From: Streptomyces sp. A1277 | GTDB taxonomy: Bacteria; Actinomycetota; Actinomycetes; Streptomycetales; Streptomycetaceae | Length of the DNA: 64,000 bases | Reading direction: 5' to 3' | NCBI RefSeq assembly: GCF_004795015.1 | Contig: NZ_SSBI01000047.1 | Location: 1 to 64,000, forward strand | Part shown: positions 19,597-29,035 of the stretch, in pieces | How the letters are laid out: every line of letters starts with the position of its first letter | Position numbering within the stretch: the stretch's first letter is position 1 | Made by a program: the position numbers and the translations under genes | Notes under the pieces: generated by a model | What the model saw: the letters and a program-made list of their open reading frames with translations, nothing else | Databases searched by the model: none | What the model was told of the DNA's origin: nothing

Positions 19597-19866
19597 GGGT
19601 CACTCCAAAACTTCAGATGCACTTACAGTGAATTCCGGCACGCCGGATTCATTGACTGAAGTGGCGGTACCGGGGGAATGTCCCGACTCTCGTCGGGCAA
19701 CCGAAGCAGCATACAACGGCTGCGTCGGAGATACGAAACTACCATGGGTTCCCCACCTGCCCGCCCCGCCCCCGGGCCGCCCGCACCCGCCGGCCGGAGC
19801 TACCCTGCGGTGCAGCCAGCCGCCCCCGTACGTGTTCCGAGTCCCTGTTCCGAGGAGGACTTCCAG

Positions 19867-21501
19867 GTGCCGCAGACCGCCGACGAACCGGACGCCGTCG
19901 CGGTACGGACCTGGTGCTCCCTGGCCCTGGAGGCGCTCGGCCGCGAGCGCGCGGCGATCGACGCGATCAACGTCTACCCCGTCGCCGACGGGGACACCGG
20001 CACCAACCTCTACCTGACCGTGGAATCCGCGGCGGCCGCCGTCGAAGCGGTCTTCGCCGCCCACGAGACCGGCACCTCGGTGCCGTGTGCCGCGGACGCG
20101 GTACGGGCCATGGCCCACGGGGCGCTGATCGGCGCCCGGGGCAACTCCGGCACGATCCTGGCCCAGCTGCTGCGGGGCATGGCCGAGGTGCTCGCCGAGG
20201 GCACCGGCGGCGACCGGCTCCGCTTGGCGCTCGACCGGGCCGCCGCCTCCGCCCGCCAAGCCGTCGCCCACCCCGTCGAGGGCACCGTCCTGACCGTCGC
20301 CGACCGGGCCGCCGGTGCGGCGGGGAGCGCACCGCCCGGCGCGGACACGGCCGAGGTGGCCCGGGCGGCGTACGAAGGCGCCCGCACCGCCCTGGACGCG
20401 ACCCCCGGACAGCTCCCCGCCCTCGCCAGGGCCGGGGTGGTCGACGCCGGGGGGCGCGGCCTGGTGACCCTGCTCGGCGCCCTGGTCGAAGCCGTCTCCG
20501 GACGGGCCCCGGAGCGGCCGTACGAAAACCCCGCCCCGTTCGTCCCGCCGCCCTCCGGCACCGGGGAGTGCCCGGCCGCCGAGGGGTCCGGAAGCGGCCC
20601 CGCCTTCGAGGTCATCTACCTCCTGGAGGCCGGTGACGAGGCCGTCGAGCGGCTGCGGACCCGGCTGGACGGCCTCGGCGACTCCCTGGTGGTGGTCGGC
20701 GGCGACGGCCTGTGGCACGTCCATGTGCACGTGGACGACGCGGGGGCCGCCGTGGAGGCCGGCGTCGAGGCCGGTCGCCCGTACCGCATCCGCATCACGC
20801 ACTTCGCCGCCGACCGGGCGCACGCCCGCCCCGAACCCGCCCGGCGCGCGGTCGTCGCGGTCGTCCCGGGCGACGGCCTCGCCGGCCTGTGCGAGCAGGC
20901 CGGCGCCACGACGGTCCTCGCCCGGCCCGGGGAGCCGCCCGCCAGCGGCGAACTCGTGGACGCGATCCGCCGCGCCCACGCCCGCGAGGTGGTCCTGCTG
21001 CCCAACGACGCCGGCCTGCGCCACACCGCCGCTGCCGCCGCCGAACAGGCCAGGGCCCAGGGCATCCGGGTCGCCCTCGTCCCGACCAGGGCCGCCGTCC
21101 AGGGCATCGCGGCCCTGGCCGTCCACGAGCCCGACCGCAGCTTCGACGAGGACGTGGTCGCGATGACCGCGGCGGCCGGCGCCACCCGCTACGCCGAACT
21201 GGCCGTCGCCGAACGGCAGTCCTGGACCATGGCCGGCGTCTGCCAGGCCGGCGACATCCTGGGCCTGATCGACGGCGACGTGGCCGTCATCGGCCAGGAC
21301 GTCCCCGGCACCGCCCGCAAGGTCCTGGACCGCATGCTCGCGGCGGGCGGCGAACTGGTCACCCTGGTCCTGGGCGAGGACACCCCGCCCGCCCTGGCCG
21401 ACACCCTGGAAGAACACGTCCGCGAGGGCTACCTGGCGGTGGACACCACGGTCTACAACGGCGGCCACCAGCACGCTCCGCTGCTGATCGGAGTGGAGTA
21501 A
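19867..21501 (+). CDS. DAK2/DegV-partner kinase, FakA (YloV) family
   Basis: The 544-aa product has an N-terminal DhaL-like ATP-binding domain with INVYPVADGDTGTNLYLT (the Mg-binding aspartates) and GALIGARGNSGTILAQLLRG. A middle region and a C-terminal domain of the FakA type (LPNDAGLRHTAAAAAEQA, NGGHQHAPLLIGVE) follow. In Firmicutes FakA phosphorylates fatty acids presented by FakB (DegV) proteins; whether it does so here is inferred. The start is GTG 19867, 7 nt after GAGGAGGA. The order rpmB-yloV-recG is widely conserved, but here recG is displaced by two extra genes. Confidence 0.88.
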   Translation: MPQTADEPDAVAVRTWCSLALEALGRERAAIDAINVYPVADGDTGTNLYLTVESAAAAVEAVFAAHETGTSVPCAADAVRAMAHGALIGARGNSGTILAQLLRGMAEVLAEGTGGDRLRLALDRAAASARQAVAHPVEGTVLTVADRAAGAAGSAPPGADTAEVARAAYEGARTALDATPGQLPALARAGVVDAGGRGLVTLLGALVEAVSGRAPERPYENPAPFVPPPSGTGECPAAEGSGSGPAFEVIYLLEAGDEAVERLRTRLDGLGDSLVVVGGDGLWHVHVHVDDAGAAVEAGVEAGRPYRIRITHFAADRAHARPEPARRAVVAVVPGDGLAGLCEQAGATTVLARPGEPPASGELVDAIRRAHAREVVLLPNDAGLRHTAAAAAEQARAQGIRVALVPTRAAVQGIAALAVHEPDRSFDEDVVAMTAAAGATRYAELAVAERQSWTMAGVCQAGDILGLIDGDVAVIGQDVPGTARKVLDRMLAAGGELVTLVLGEDTPPALADTLEEHVREGYLAVDTTVYNGGHQHAPLLIGVE

Positions 21502-21564: not shown

Positions 21565-21737
21565 AAGCCCGTCCGGCGTTTGAGGACGGAACCCGCACAA
21601 CCAGGCCCTCGCGCTCGCGGACGGGGCCCGCGCATTCAAGCCCGTCCGGCGATTGAGGACGGAACCCGCACAACCGGGCCCTCGCGCTCGCGGACCGGGC
21701 CCGCGAATGAAAGCCCGTCCGGCGATTGAGGACGAGG
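21565..21737. repeat. Tandem 73-bp repeats with GCCCGTCCGGCGATTGAGGAC core
   Basis: The segment AAGCCCGTCCGGCG(A/T)TTGAGGACG starts at 21565, 21638 and 21711, an exact 73-bp period: two full units and a partial third. A truncated copy lies at 21545-21559. The unit also contains CTCGCGCTCGCGGAC and CGGGCCCGCG. The core is, from memory, a very common intergenic repeat of Streptomyces chromosomes. The stretch fills the 304 bp between the convergent FakA-like and TPR genes; no gene is seen in it. Confidence 0.9.
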
Positions 21738-21805: not shown

Positions 21806-24730
21806 CTACGCCGCTTCCGCCACATACGCCCGCACCGACTCCACCTCCGCCCGCCGCGCGTCCACCGTCTCGTCCGCGCCCTCCCGCACCCCCTCGTACG
21901 CGGCCACCACCTGCGCCGCCCGCCCCAGCGCCGCCCGGCCGCGGCCCAGGTCCGCCTCCAGCCATGCGGCCATCAGCAGGGCGCCCGTGCGCGCGGCCAG
22001 CTGCTCGGGCCCCGCCTCCTGGAAGGTCTCCGCCGCCCGCTCGACGTACCCGAGCGCCTCCTCGTACACCACCCGCAGCGGATCGTCCGCCGCCTCGCCC
22101 GGTTCGCCCTCGCAGGACTGGGCGAGCAGTTCGGCGGTCTGCCAGTACGTGGCGGCCAGCTCCGCCCGCAGTTCCGGACGCGCCGCGCACTCCCGTGCCG
22201 CCTCGGCCATGAACGCCCGCGCCGCACCCATCCCCGAGGGGCCCTCCCGCAGCGCGATCCAGGCCCGCACCCGCAGGGTCCGCACCAGCGACTGCGCCTC
22301 GTCCAGCGCCCGCCACAGCTCCCCGGCACGGGCGTAAGCCTGCTCGGCCTCCGGGTTCAGCTCGGCCCGGTACAGGGCCTGCCCGGCGAGCTGGGCGAGC
22401 ATCGCGTGGTCGTGCTGCTCCGGCCACGTACGGGCGATGTCCGCCGCCCGCAGCCAGTGCTCCGCCGCCGCCCTCGGCTCGTCGAGCGCCATCAGCCCCT
22501 CGCCGAGCCACCACAGCGTCTGGACGAGCATGCCGTCCCCGTGGTCCTCGGCCGAGACGTCGGGCAGGACGGCCTCCAGCACGGCCGCCGCCTCCGCCGC
22601 CCGCCCCAGCCACAGCAGCCGGCCGCCGAGCTGGTGCCGGGCGTAGACACCCAGCGTCCCGCTCTCGCCGGCCTCGTCCGCCCAGTGCGAGGCGTCCAGG
22701 GCGAGGTCCGCCGCCTCGGCGATCTGCCCCGTCGCGGCGAGCAGGTCGGCCAGCTGAAGACGGAGCCGGGCCCGGCCGGACGGGCTCACGAACGTGTCCC
22801 CGTGCTCCAGCGCCGAGCGCGCGGCCCGCTCCGCCGTCGCGTGGTCCTCCAGTCCGGCCGCGGTCCGCGCCACCCGCACCTCGTAGTCCACGGCACTCCA
22901 GGGCAGTCCCGCGTCGTGCGCCTCGGCGGCGGCCCGCTCGTACAGCCCGAGGGCGGTCGGCGCGTCGCCCCGGTGGGCGGCGACGTCCCCGAGGCAGCCC
23001 AGCGCCTCCGCGATCCGGGTGGCGAGCCGCCCCTCGTCGCGCCGCGGCTCGGTGAACGCCAGCACCTCGCGCGCCGCCCGTTCGAGGTCCGCGACGGCGG
23101 CGTCGTGCGACTCCTCGTCCGTCGCCCGCAGCATCCGCTGCTCGACGATCCGGGCCCGGCAGACCAGGACACCGGACGCCTGCCGGGCGGTGGCCCCGCC
23201 CCCGGCGTGCAGCGCGAGGGCCCGCTCCACGAGCGGTGCGATCAGCACCGCCGCCTCGTCGGTCTCCCCGCCCAGCGCACGGGCGAAGGTCTCCCTGGCG
23301 CTCGCCGCGACGGCCTCGCCCGCGTCGCCCCCGGCCTCGTACAGCCCGGCCGCCGTACGAAACGCCCGCGCCGCCTCGGCGGGCGGCAGGGTGCCGTCCA
23401 TCGCGAGGTGGTCCTCCAGGGTCGCCCGGTCCAGGGGCGCGAGGACGGCCCCCTCCCGCTCGGTGCGCGCGGCGACCGCCCGCCAGGCGTCCCCGGCCTC
23501 GGGGCGCAGCGCCTCGGCCAGCCGGTGCGCCTCGGCCAGCAGCGCGGCCAGGTCCGGCGCGTCCGCGTCCCCGGCGCCGGAGGCCGGCGGTACGGGGGCG
23601 GCCGGTGCCGCGCTCATCGGCCGCGCCGCCCGTACCCCGAGCGGCAGCCGGTCCAGCAGCGGGACCTGAGCCAGGCGTGTGCGCAGCTCCTGCGTCACGT
23701 ACCCGTTGCCGTTGCGCTCGTCGAAGCGGGCGGCCAGGGCCAGCGCCCGGGTACGGGCCTCGACGGCCAGCGACGCGGCGGTCCACTCGGTGCCCGCCGG
23801 GCCGGGCACCGACTGCCCGCCGTGGCCCAGCGCGACGAGCCGGTCCATCAGCAGGGCGGTCACGGCCAGGAAGCTCATCAGGCTGCCCGGGTTCCCGCTG
23901 TCGGTGAAGTACGCCGGCCGCTCCGCGAGGATCTCCAGCGCCCGGGCCTCGTTGCCGGTCAGCGCGCAGAACTCGATGTGCAGCGCGGCCGAGTAGCGCA
24001 TGCTCTCCATCGGCCGGACCATCCGGTACCCGCGCAGATGGTGCGCCCGCGCCTGATCCGCCCGCCCCGTCCGCAGCAGCGGCAGCAGGGAGGAGGCCAG
24101 CACGGCGTGCGGCTCGTGCGCGCAGACGTGCTCACCTTCCAGCACCGGCGCCCAGGTCTTCAGCCCCTCCTCGTCCTGCCCGCGCAGCACCTGCCAGGAG
24201 CCCTGCCCGTGCAGTTCGCAGGCGTGGCAGTTGGCCATCCGGTCCCGGTCGGCGGCCAGCCAGGCCCGGTGGGCCCGCTCACCGCGTTCCAGGTCGCCCA
24301 GGTGCCGGGCGATCGTCAGCTCGCCGTGGCGCACGGCCCGCTCCGAGTGGCCGGCGAGCCGGTAGCGGTGGGCCATCTCGGCCTGCCACTTCTCGATGGC
24401 GGCGAGCGGGATGTGCGGCTGGTCGATCATGGAGCTGGAGACCCACTTGAACATCCAGAACAGATGGTGGGTCATGAACCGGTCGAAGTCGCCCGGCTGT
24501 TCGTCCCACAGCTTCAGCAGCCGCGCGAAGGGGACGAACATCTTGTCCTTCTCGGAGCTGTAGTTGTAGACCTGCAACTGATGGACGAGCGCCTCGATCA
24601 CCAGCGCCGTGTCCCCGGTCTGCTCCGCCTCGGTCAGCAGCCGCTCCGCGCGGGCGTTGCGCGCGGGCCCCTCCGGCTCGGCCTGCATGTCCCGCAGGGC
24701 CTGGCGGATCGTCGCGATGTCGGCGCTCAT
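21806..24730 (-). CDS. Large TPR-type repeat protein, partner of HSP90-like protein
   Basis: The 974-aa product is almost entirely helical, with many Ala/Leu-rich TPR-like units, dense from residue about 390 to the end (for example GDAPTALGLYERAAAEAHDAG, LGRAAEAAAVLEAVLP). The first 350 residues form a distinct domain containing NCHACELHG near residue 167 and CAHEPH near 205, a possible metal site. The start ATG 24730 follows AGGAGGA and overlaps the HSP90 stop in ATGA, so the two are translationally coupled. In eukaryotes TPR proteins serve as HSP90 co-chaperones; a similar role here is inference. GC3 use is like the host's. Confidence 0.85.
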   Translation of the reverse strand: MSADIATIRQALRDMQAEPEGPARNARAERLLTEAEQTGDTALVIEALVHQLQVYNYSSEKDKMFVPFARLLKLWDEQPGDFDRFMTHHLFWMFKWVSSSMIDQPHIPLAAIEKWQAEMAHRYRLAGHSERAVRHGELTIARHLGDLERGERAHRAWLAADRDRMANCHACELHGQGSWQVLRGQDEEGLKTWAPVLEGEHVCAHEPHAVLASSLLPLLRTGRADQARAHHLRGYRMVRPMESMRYSAALHIEFCALTGNEARALEILAERPAYFTDSGNPGSLMSFLAVTALLMDRLVALGHGGQSVPGPAGTEWTAASLAVEARTRALALAARFDERNGNGYVTQELRTRLAQVPLLDRLPLGVRAARPMSAAPAAPVPPASGAGDADAPDLAALLAEAHRLAEALRPEAGDAWRAVAARTEREGAVLAPLDRATLEDHLAMDGTLPPAEAARAFRTAAGLYEAGGDAGEAVAASARETFARALGGETDEAAVLIAPLVERALALHAGGGATARQASGVLVCRARIVEQRMLRATDEESHDAAVADLERAAREVLAFTEPRRDEGRLATRIAEALGCLGDVAAHRGDAPTALGLYERAAAEAHDAGLPWSAVDYEVRVARTAAGLEDHATAERAARSALEHGDTFVSPSGRARLRLQLADLLAATGQIAEAADLALDASHWADEAGESGTLGVYARHQLGGRLLWLGRAAEAAAVLEAVLPDVSAEDHGDGMLVQTLWWLGEGLMALDEPRAAAEHWLRAADIARTWPEQHDHAMLAQLAGQALYRAELNPEAEQAYARAGELWRALDEAQSLVRTLRVRAWIALREGPSGMGAARAFMAEAARECAARPELRAELAATYWQTAELLAQSCEGEPGEAADDPLRVVYEEALGYVERAAETFQEAGPEQLAARTGALLMAAWLEADLGRGRAALGRAAQVVAAYEGVREGADETVDARRAEVESVRAYVAEAA

Positions 24731-26640
24731 CGGCCGTCCTCCTGAGGGTTCACGGGCGGCGGGCCGCCGGGGGATGCGGCGCCGAGCGGCGCGGCGGGGG
24801 GCGCGACCGGGGGCGCGGCCGGGGGCGCGGCCCACTCCAGGAGCCCCATGAAGGCCCGGTTCAGCAGCGCCGAGTCGGCCGGCCGCAACGGGCGCTGCGC
24901 CATCAGCAGGGCCTGCCCGTACAGTGCCTCCGTCGCGGTCACCGCCAGCTCCGGGGTGTCCAGCGAACCGATGCGGCGGATCAACGGGTTGAGCTGGTTC
25001 AGTACGAGCCGGGCGCGCGGCGCACTGCCGCGCAACGAGCCCAGGATGCCCGCCCACAGGTCGTCCGCCTGCTCCTCGGCCTCGGCCCTGGCCTGCTCGT
25101 GGCGGACGGACCGGTCGTCCAGGTGCAGTGCGGGGGTGGTCACCGGGTGGAAGGCGCGCAGCACCACATCGCAGCCCAGCGGGTCGAGCCGGGCCCGCGC
25201 CGCCGCGAGGAACGGACTGAGCGCCAGCTCCTCGGCCGGGTCCACGGCGTCCAGATGGGCCGTCACCGTATCGGCGTCCAGCTCCGCGACCACCGTCCCC
25301 GGCCGGGCCGCCGGCAGCCGCTCGACCAGCTCGGTGTCGTACGTGTAACCGCCGTTGACCACCCCGATGCCCTGCGCGGACGCGATCGGCGCGACCTGCC
25401 GGAACTCCTCCACGGACCGGGTGAAGTGCACCACCGGGTGGCGCCGGGCGAACTCCTCCAGCGACAGCCGCCCGTCCGTCGTCTCGAACGGCAGCCACGG
25501 CAGCATCGTGCGCCACATCGCCTCGTCGTGCCGGGCCAGCGACTTCACGCCCAGGTGGTGCACGGACAGGAACTGCGCCAGCCGCTCCGGATCACCCGCC
25601 GCGAGACCCGTCAGCCACTCCCTGATCCGGTCGCCCAGCGCCTCCCGTACGGCCGCCAGCGTCTCGTCCGCGTACAGCGCCTCGCGCGAGGCGGTGGGCC
25701 GCAGGCTGTCCGTGTCGATCACGCACCGCACGAAGAACGCCCACTCCGGCAGCAGTTCCTCCGCCCGGTCCGTCAGCAGCATGCCCTTGAGATGGACCCG
25801 GTGGCCCGCGCGCTGCGCCGGGCTCACCGCCGACGGCAGGACGTGGGCCACCCCGCGTATCCCGGCGAGCGGCAGGGCGAGGTCGATGGTGTCCAGCGGC
25901 GAGAAGCCGAACTGCTCGTGGCAGTGGCGCGCCAGCGCCACCCGCCGAGCGGCCGGGCTCGGATACGCCCGGTCCCAAGGGGCGGGCAGCGCGGTGACGG
26001 CCTCCTCGCCGACCCGGACGTCGTACGGCAGCAGCGAACCGAAGTCACGGGCCAGAGCGAGCACCCGCTCCTCCTCCAGCCACTCGGCGCTGCCCGGCCG
26101 GGCGGTCAGATGCACGGTGGTCCCGGGCTCCGGGCGCGCGCTGTCGGGCAGCGTACGGACGGTGTACGAACCGTCCTCGCGGGCGCACCACTCCACCGGC
26201 GGCTCCCCGGGCGTCCGCGCGGACCGGCTCACGACCCGGATCTCGGCGGCCACCACGAAGCACGCCAGCAGCCCGATCCCGAACTGGCCGAGGAACCCGG
26301 CACGCGCCGAGGCGAGGGAGTCGGCACCGTCCCGCTTGGAGCTGCGGCCGATCGTGGCGAGCAGGCTGTGCACATCGGCCTCGGTCAGACCGATGCCGCT
26401 GTCCTCCACCCGTAGGCGGCCGCCCTCGGCGTACAGCCGCACCAGCGCGGGCGCGTCCGGCTGTTCGGACCGCCGGGCCGTGATGGCGTCCACGGCGTTC
26501 TGCAGCAGCTCGCGCAGATAGACCCGGGGCGAGGAGTAGAGGTGGTGGGAGAGGAGGTCGACCAGTCCGCGCAGATCCACCTGGAAGGTGTGCGGTTCCC
26601 GGGCGGCGGCGGAATCGGTTGCTGAAGTCTCAGATGTCAT
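24727..26640 (-). CDS. HSP90-family (HtpG-like) ATPase
   Basis: The 637-aa product keeps the GHKL ATPase features: RELLQNAVDAI (Glu44, Asn48), DSGIGLT (Asp80) and GFLGQFGIGLLACF (residues 115-128). The middle-domain PTASREAL, near residue 315, supplies the catalytic Arg equivalent to the SRE motif of HtpG. A shortened C-terminal dimerisation region (LNQLNPLIRRIG, YGQALLMAQRPL) ends in a Pro/Ala-rich tail rather than MEEVD. It is divergent enough from standard HtpG to be a separate subgroup. First gene of a two-gene operon with the TPR protein; divergent from recG with a 175-bp spacer. No good ribosome-binding site is seen at ATG 26640. Confidence 0.88.
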   Translation of the reverse strand: MTSETSATDSAAAREPHTFQVDLRGLVDLLSHHLYSSPRVYLRELLQNAVDAITARRSEQPDAPALVRLYAEGGRLRVEDSGIGLTEADVHSLLATIGRSSKRDGADSLASARAGFLGQFGIGLLACFVVAAEIRVVSRSARTPGEPPVEWCAREDGSYTVRTLPDSARPEPGTTVHLTARPGSAEWLEEERVLALARDFGSLLPYDVRVGEEAVTALPAPWDRAYPSPAARRVALARHCHEQFGFSPLDTIDLALPLAGIRGVAHVLPSAVSPAQRAGHRVHLKGMLLTDRAEELLPEWAFFVRCVIDTDSLRPTASREALYADETLAAVREALGDRIREWLTGLAAGDPERLAQFLSVHHLGVKSLARHDEAMWRTMLPWLPFETTDGRLSLEEFARRHPVVHFTRSVEEFRQVAPIASAQGIGVVNGGYTYDTELVERLPAARPGTVVAELDADTVTAHLDAVDPAEELALSPFLAAARARLDPLGCDVVLRAFHPVTTPALHLDDRSVRHEQARAEAEEQADDLWAGILGSLRGSAPRARLVLNQLNPLIRRIGSLDTPELAVTATEALYGQALLMAQRPLRPADSALLNRAFMGLLEWAAPPAAPPVAPPAAPLGAASPGGPPPVNPQEDGR

Positions 26641-26815
26641 CGTCGCAGCGCCGGTGGGGGGACTTTCGGCAGCGCGGGTCGGGCGGTCCCTCGGGAGGTG
26701 ACCGCGAGTGAGAGGCGTGGGGGAGCCGATCCTAGGGTCGCAACACGATTCTGACCAGGAGTTTCCGGGGTGACCGGCGGTGCCCGTCGGACAACTGTCA
26801 CTGCCGTGGTGTGCA

Positions 26816-29035
26816 ATGGATCGCGTGTCTGCGTTCGACGAACCCCTCAAGAAGCTGCTCGGTGGCGCCACCGCGAAGGTGATGGCCGAGCACCTCGACC
26901 TGCACACGGTCGGTGATCTCCTGCATCACTACCCGCGCCGGTACGAGGAGCGCGGCCGCCTCACCGCGCTGACCGACCTCCCGCTCGACGAGCACGTCAC
27001 GGTCGTCGCCCAGGTCGCCGACGCCCGCGTGCTGACGTTCAACGGGGGACGCGGCAAGCGCCTCGAAGTGACCCTCACCGACGGCCACGGCCGGCTCCAG
27101 CTGGTCTTCTTCGGCCACGGCGTCCACAAGCCGCACAAGGACCTGCTGCCGGGCCGGCGCGCCATGTTCGCCGGCAAGGTCTCCGTCTTCAACCGCAAGA
27201 TGCAGCTCGCCCACCCCACGTACCAGCTGCTCGACGCCGCGGACGACGACGAGGCCGGGGCGAGCGAGGCCGTGGACGCCTTCGCGGGCAAGCTGCTGCC
27301 GATCTACCCCGCCTGCAAGCAGCTCGACTCCTGGCGGATCGCCAAGGCGGTCGACGCGGTGCTGCCCAGCGCCCGGGAGGCCGTCGACCCGCTGCCCGAG
27401 GCCCTGCGCGAGGGGCGCGGCTTCACCTCGCTGCCCGAGGCCCTGCTGAAGATCCACCGGCCGCAGACCAAGGCCGACGTGGCGGCGGCCCGGGACCGGC
27501 TGAAGTGGGACGAGGCGTTCGTCCTCCAGGTCGCCCTGGCCCGCCGCAGGTTCGCCGACACCCAGCTCCCGGCCGTCGCCCGCCGCCCCGCGCCCGGCGG
27601 CCTCCTCGACGCCTTCGACGCGAAGCTGCCGTTCACCCTCACCGACGGCCAGCTCAAGGTCTCGAAGGAGATCTTCGACGACCTCGCCACCGAACACCCG
27701 ATGCACCGCCTCCTCCAGGGCGAGGTCGGCTCCGGCAAGACGCTGGTCGCGCTGCGCGCCATGCTCGCCGTGGTCGACGCGGGCGGGCAGGCCGCCATGC
27801 TCGCCCCCACCGAGGTCCTCGCCCAGCAGCACCACCGCTCGGTCACCGAGATGATGGGGGAGCTGGCCGAGGGGGGCATGCTGGGGGGCTCCGACCAGGG
27901 CACCAAGGTCGTTGTGCTCACCGGCTCCATGGGCACAGCCGCGCGCCGGCAGGCCCTGCTCGACCTGGTCACCGGTGAGGCCGGCATCGTCATCGGCACG
28001 CACGCGCTGATCGAGGACAAGGTCAAGTTCCACGACCTGGGCCTGGTCGTCGTGGACGAGCAGCACCGCTTCGGCGTGGAGCAGCGCGACGCCCTGCGCT
28101 CCAAGGGCAAGCAGCCGCCGCACCTGCTCGTCATGACCGCCACCCCCATCCCCCGCACGGTCGCCATGACGGTCTTCGGCGACCTGGAGACCTCCGTCCT
28201 CGACCAGCTGCCGGCCGGCCGCTCGCCCATCGCCAGCCATGTCGTCCCCGCCAAGGACAAACCCCACTTCCTCACCCGCGCCTGGGAACGGGTCCGCGAA
28301 GAGGTGGAGAACGGCCACCAGGCGTACGTGGTCTGCCCCCGCATCGGCGACGACGAGGACGACGCCGGAAAGAAGAAGGGGAAGAAGAAGACCGCCGAGG
28401 AGGAGGCGACGGCGGACAAGCGCCCGCCGCTCGCCGTCCTGGAGATCGCCGACCAGCTCTCCAAGGGCCCCTTGAGCGGCCTGCGCGTCGAGGTGCTGCA
28501 CGGCAGGATGCAGCCCGACGCCAAGGACGACGTGATGCGCCGCTTCGCCGCCGGCGAGGCCGACGTCCTGGTCGCCACCACCGTCATCGAGGTCGGCGTC
28601 AACGTTCCCAACGCCACCGCGATGGTGATCATGGACGCCGACCGCTTCGGCGTCTCCCAGCTGCACCAGCTGCGCGGCCGGGTCGGCCGAGGCTCGGCCC
28701 CGGGCCTGTGCCTGCTGGTCACCGAGGCCCACGAGGCGAGCCCCGCCCGCGCCCGCCTCTCCGCCGTCGCCGCCACCCTGGACGGCTTCGAGCTGTCCCG
28801 CATCGACCTCGAACAGCGCCGCGAGGGCGACGTACTCGGCCAGGCCCAGTCCGGGGTCCGCTCCTCGCTGCGGGTCCTGAGCGTCATCGACGACGAGGAG
28901 GTCATCGCCGCCGCCCGCCAGGAGGCCGTCACCGTCGTCGCCGCCGACCCCGAGCTGGAGCACCTGCCCGAGCTGCGCACCGCCCTGGACGCCCTGCTCG
29001 ACAAGGAGCGCGAGGAGTACCTGGAGAAGGGATGA
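26816..29035 (+). CDS. recG: ATP-dependent DNA helicase RecG
   Basis: The 739-aa helicase remodels stalled forks and branched DNA. It has the N-terminal wedge/OB domain ([11 protein letters not shown]), Walker A GEVGSGKT, the DExH-like [13 protein letters not shown], motif [12 protein letters not shown], and motifs V/VI ending in [10 protein letters not shown] Lys/Glu-rich insertion ([15 protein letters not shown]) near residue 525 is typical of actinobacterial RecG. ATG 26816 fits the family N-terminus. GTG 26780, preceded by GGGGTGA, is a good alternative adding 12 residues. Confidence 0.95.

Follow-up and report, generated by a model that had tools for sequence, protein, structure and literature searches.

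Two adjoining and co-inherited genes of Streptomyces sp. A1277 seem to encode a dedicated two-protein chaperone module, in which a bacterial HSP90 works with its own alpha-solenoid adaptor (co-chaperone); we put the chances of this explanation at about even. In the proposed mechanism, the HSP90 and its partner would be made together through translational coupling, and the HSP90 would run an ATP-driven open/closed cycle. Docking on the HSP90 would fall to the conserved N-terminal solenoid of the partner and would not involve an EEVD tail; the C-terminal TPR superhelix, which evolves faster, would recruit clients or other machinery. We infer both the physical binding of the two proteins and the division of labour between the partner's two solenoids. 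More tentatively, at somewhat less than even confidence, the pair may represent a second bacterial HSP90 branch with an obligate co-chaperone, where a cysteine-containing alpha-solenoid docks without EEVD; this would be a bacterial TPR-type partnership, probably independently evolved, in which other TPR proteins can substitute. If true, the pair would offer a minimal HSP90-adaptor system that is easy to manipulate. It would also speak to the question of a repeated origin of the HSP90-TPR partnership, and would supply a function for an ATPase family that about two thirds of the sampled Streptomyces, as well as Listeria, possess.

The gene pair and its insertion site

The window, by which we mean the whole stretch of 64,000 nucleotides analysed here, carries the pair within a run of housekeeping genes as the initial annotation had described, with ThiL, ThiD and DAK on one side and RecG and CoaD on the other (Table 1). 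The ATGA in which the HSP90 stop and the partner start had been said to overlap is indeed seen, and together with the AGGAGG upstream of it this sequence arrangement indicates probable translational coupling of the two genes. The pair had also been taken for an insertion between DAK and recG, which agrees with the finding that DAK directly adjoins recG in each of 20 examined Streptomyces genomes with no pair at this position (gaps of 38-420 bp). Carriers and empties interleave in the recG+DAK tree, where 6 changes are needed and at least four are forced by well-supported branches. Moreover, 158 of the 247 sampled Streptomyces possess a family member at the recG site or elsewhere, and the pair is hence not strain-specific. 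The insertion is old and has been repeatedly gained or lost.

Table 1. Features of the gene pair and its flanks, with positions in the window
Feature	Position	Strand	Remark
DAK (FakA-like) gene, insertion-site flank	19678..21501	+	
Three copies of GCCCGTCCGGCGATTGAGGAC, in the interval from DAK to the partner gene	21567..21733	+	one mismatch allowed
Partner gene, alpha-solenoid protein	21806..24730	-	974 aa ORF
Predicted C-terminal TPR superhelix of partner, residues 393-974	21809..23554	-	structural match to LGN
Partner linker at ~366-392			residues 369-390 predicted disordered
N-terminal helical domain of partner, ~350 aa (residues 1-355)	23666..24730	-	
ATGA stop/start overlap, HSP90 gene and partner gene	24727..24730	-	AGGAGG upstream
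HSP90-family ATPase gene, NF010683 / PRK14083	24727..26640	-	637 aa ORF
Conserved promoter-like element TGGTCA-N17-TAGGAT, upstream of HSP90 gene	26729..26757	-	
recG, other insertion-site flank	26780..29035	+	true start may be slightly inside

Classic heat-shock control of the HSP90 gene is not indicated, because neither a CIRCE nor a HAIR element was found in the upstream region and the conserved promoter-like element lies there instead; control of the CIRCE or HAIR type was hence rejected. The lack of such an element weighs against the chaperone module. A sigma-R-like GGAA-N-GTT match occurs in 46 of 81 upstream regions, where it overlaps the promoter-like element and is indistinguishable from it. 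The GCCCGTCCGGCGATTGAGGAC repeat found on the DAK side is also common throughout the window's genome (66 copies, compared with 0 for the reversed control).

Linkage of the two genes across bacteria

The possibility, raised in the initial annotation, that the two genes are rarely adjacent elsewhere is contradicted by 116 of 117 NF010683-family loci, spread over several families of actinobacteria and two genera of Bacillota, in which the partner lies directly downstream. This holds for each of the 80 Streptomyces copies at the recG locus (loci fetched by HSP90 similarity), and wherever the contig extends that far the pair sits between recG and DAK. The partner N-domain is downstream in 36 of 37 further family loci, which comprise Streptomyces copies at the recG locus and at other sites, plasmids, other actinobacterial families, Paenibacillus and Listeria; the ATPases of the latter two genera are also clear NF010683 members. 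Of the recG-locus copies, 58 have a stop/start overlap of 4 bases and 21 one of 1 base, making 79 of 80; in the last copy the start is uncertain. Beside canonical HtpG genes, no such partner was found in 20 loci. A phylum-wide sample of 296 genomes yielded 12 family loci (in 10 genomes) and 14 clear N-domain loci, 12 of which are paired with the family loci. The distance matrices of HSP90 and N-domain are strongly correlated (r = 0.93 over 34 deep loci; reached in 0 of 5000 shuffles), and such matching distances also follow from linked inheritance alone.

The sole exception among the 117 loci, L212, holds a borderline family member followed by a different small TPR protein, again with an ATGA overlap. 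This small protein has Pfam TPR matches over the cut-off, and its homology to the N-domain is not supported. A divergent HSP90 of Xanthomonas (L119; 277 bits, under the NF010683 cut-off) is likewise followed by a TPR protein, of 774 aa, for which homology to the N-domain is not supported either.

Several variants of the arrangement were also observed. Listeria monocytogenes NCTC7974 has two tandem partner genes after the HSP90 gene (L116:4142-7927) and another strain (L117) has one, with a SUKH-family gene following. The HSP90 of genome G803 falls into two overlapping matches that differ in frame, likely because of a frameshift, and the partner is intact (L211:5029-7873). Copies outside the recG site often have a third gene, of ~325-330 aa, directly upstream of HSP90, as in seven loci (L112, L113, L130, L131, L134, L135 and L137); it is present in none of the 80 recG-locus copies, and the members scanned have no Pfam match. 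A fusion of the HSP90 and partner genes was not seen, which weighs against the proposed module. At L132:3240-9478, a MoxR-type AAA ATPase, a CoxE-type vWA protein, the HSP90 and the partner form one same-strand run.

Composition of the two proteins

The ATPase of the window is a clear member of NCBIfam NF010683 (PRK14083, 'HSP90 family protein'): it scores 848 bits, with the cut-off at 455, and the match spans model positions 4-597 of 604. It was ruled out as HtpG (PRK05218; 177 bits, under the cut-off of 371) and belongs to a separate HSP90 family; its alignment with HtpG is nonetheless almost full-length and ends at position 598 of 614. Among solved structures, TRAP1, Hsp82 and HtpG are its best relatives. 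The protein consists of an N-terminal Bergerat ATPase, a middle domain with the SRE arginine, a C-terminal region and a low-complexity Pro/Ala tail (~605-637). All Bergerat-fold motifs are present, and the retention of the nucleotide-binding motifs and the middle-domain catalytic arginine, noted previously, extends to 12 divergent family members, in which E44, N48, D51, D80, G82, G84, the 118-123 glycine loop, T174 and R319 (the SRE arginine) are invariant. This invariance indicates that the ATPase is under purifying selection; in the proposed module the window HSP90 would have ATPase and chaperone activities. The Pro/Ala tail, also recognised earlier, is poorly conserved, with a mean pairwise identity of 42% in Streptomyces against 90% for the ATPase body. 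A C-terminal dimerisation domain may be present: the HtpG alignment extends into this region, but the AlphaFold model of the HSP90, built from 28 Streptomyces sequences and hence too shallow, is of low confidence (pLDDT 50.5) and was discarded.

No EEVD motif occurs at the HSP90 C-terminus in the window, in the 80 recG-locus copies or in the other loci examined. The eukaryotic EEVD docking mode was hence rejected, and docking of the partner would have to differ from it.

Pfam HSP90 matches among the proteins of the genome are limited to the window ATPase. The same genome (G000) has two further matches to an HSP90-type ATPase domain (C86:10081-10629 and C25:70931-71206), which lie in open frames 1752 and 1110 codons long. 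A 2006 census of HSP90 genes had recorded for S. coelicolor a second HTPG gene, of 615 aa, and did not discuss TPR proteins (PMC1525184); this second gene is probably an NF010683 member.

The partner model, built from 41 homologues (pLDDT 89.8, pTM 0.82), shows an N-terminal helical solenoid (~1-360), a disordered linker and a C-terminal superhelix (394-973). In a structural search with this predicted model, which covered mainly the C-terminal part and barely the N-terminal part, the C-terminal part matched TPR superhelices, best of all LGN (3sf4; 333 residues, Z 26.9, rmsd 5.0), and among others OGT with Z 21.1. The partner sequence gave no match in Pfam, NCBIfam, PADLOC or PDB, and none to Pfam TPR at E<=1, whereas its homologues in L207, L212 and L116 pass a Pfam TPR cut-off. 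The initial description of a 974-aa TPR protein thus stands for the C-terminal half, a predicted TPR superhelix, and lacks a Pfam TPR match in the protein itself.

The N-terminal domain had been described by its NCHAC (167-171) and CAHEPH (203-208) motifs. Both are present, but only C168, C171, C203 and P207 of them are invariant across phyla, together with W92, K95, W96, D337 and R339; the histidines are not. A CxxC/C/H zinc site was considered and not adopted, since the cysteines are invariant and the histidines are not, and metal binding is only a guess. As to whether the domain belongs to a well-known family, another doubt expressed at the outset, no Pfam or NCBIfam family was found for it, and it matches only a PHROG of unassigned function. 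Its profile gave weak helical matches against PDB, the best to a designed protein (E 0.0019).

The N-domain makes up the whole partner in Paenibacillus (353 aa, with an ATGA overlap) and in Listeria (322-324 aa, in one or two tandem copies), indicating that it is the conserved core and that the TPR arm is an actinobacterial extension. Within Streptomyces, mean pairwise identity is 81% for the N-domain and 66% for the TPR arm, placing both between the HSP90 body and its tail. This gradient suggests that one end of the partner is conserved for docking and the other diversifies for recognition.

The N-domain is not exclusive to HSP90, because three loci possess it without an HSP90 neighbour, two of them beside YbjN-domain proteins. 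One (L173) adjoins an IS110 transposase. In another the domain is fused to, and preceded by, YbjN domains (L174:6532-8609), and in the third it follows two YbjN-like genes, of which one scores under the Pfam cut-off (L114:4262-8979). The YbjN fold is presumably related to type III secretion chaperones. If this kinship is right, the N-domain would serve as an adaptor for several chaperone-like proteins and not for a single one.

Known systems and alternative explanations

The ATPase family is already catalogued; for the helical partner there is no family. The entry for NF010683, which the window ATPase fits fully, names neither a partner nor a function. HtpG has the same ATPase motifs and is homologous to the window ATPase over nearly the full length, but its genes have no partner as neighbour in the 20 loci examined. 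An HSP90 with a built-in co-chaperone is known mainly from eukaryotes, and HtpG is generally regarded as independent of TPR co-chaperones. The eukaryotic pairs of Hsp90 with Hop/Sti1, FKBP or PP5 likewise combine an HSP90 ATPase with a TPR-type helical protein; however, the bacterial pair has no EEVD and possesses a long double-solenoid partner with its own conserved N-domain, one dedicated to each HSP90. Bacteria have no Hop/Sti1 ortholog (PMC7688965). In PHROGs, phrog_34905 matches the partner N-domain and phrog_32952 the HSP90; their function is unassigned there and no pairing is described, and the phage-collection records found may be host DNA. The pair had been put forward as an undescribed system, in agreement with which no description of the pair or of the partner domain was found in the open-licence literature searched.

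The relationship between the two proteins could also be the reverse of the one we favour, with the solenoid protein as the working sensor or effector and the HSP90 as the factor dedicated to its maturation or activation. Plant HSP90 matures NLR receptors, which provides an analogy. Such a client relationship accounts as well as an adaptor does for the strict linkage and for the duplication in Listeria: there is one HSP90 per partner, translation is apparently coupled, and in some Listeria the partner gene is duplicated and the HSP90 single. The faster evolution of the partner, and the ability of the N-domain to occur without HSP90, fit a client as well. However, the partner has no recognisable effector or catalytic domain, and in Bacillota the N-domain is a bare protein of ~320 aa. 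Because unrelated TPR proteins fill the same position in L212 and behind the divergent Xanthomonas HSP90, a generic adaptor fits better, and we regard the client relationship as unlikely, though worth keeping in mind. It is improbable, moreover, that the two genes are merely co-transcribed, with a stress ATPase and a TPR scaffold serving a common pathway without contact. The evidence is all genomic, and linked inheritance alone gives matching trees; yet the genes stay adjacent after relocation to other loci and across deep divergence, and the ATGA-type overlap arose with two unrelated partner types.

A conflict module (anti-phage or toxin-immunity), subject to patchy gain and loss, appears quite improbable. 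In its favour, the presence of the pair at a fixed site is patchy, with at least four gains or losses, some copies are on plasmids, and a SUKH immunity-like gene is near the pair in Listeria. Selection signals on lmo0941 (PMC6901971), which from gene order is probably the Listeria partner gene, were also counted in its favour, as was the copy adjoined by MoxR-AAA and CoxE-vWA genes (L132). Against this, the initial suggestion of a conflict role found nothing in its support in PADLOC, which gives no family beyond partial and weak ATPase-fold matches (at most 28 bits) and none for the partner. Neither a nuclease, a protease, a TIR domain nor a membrane effector was found, and the window locus has no defence neighbours. 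The phage-collection matches that include the partner are short unannotated contigs. The MoxR-vWA ternary conflict systems (Kaur et al. 2020, eLife.52696) were described with no mention of HSP90; L132, an actinobacterial copy with MoxR-type AAA and CoxE-type vWA genes directly upstream of the pair, is the only such case among the loci inspected, and the window has no MoxR AAA or vWA genes between or beside the pair.
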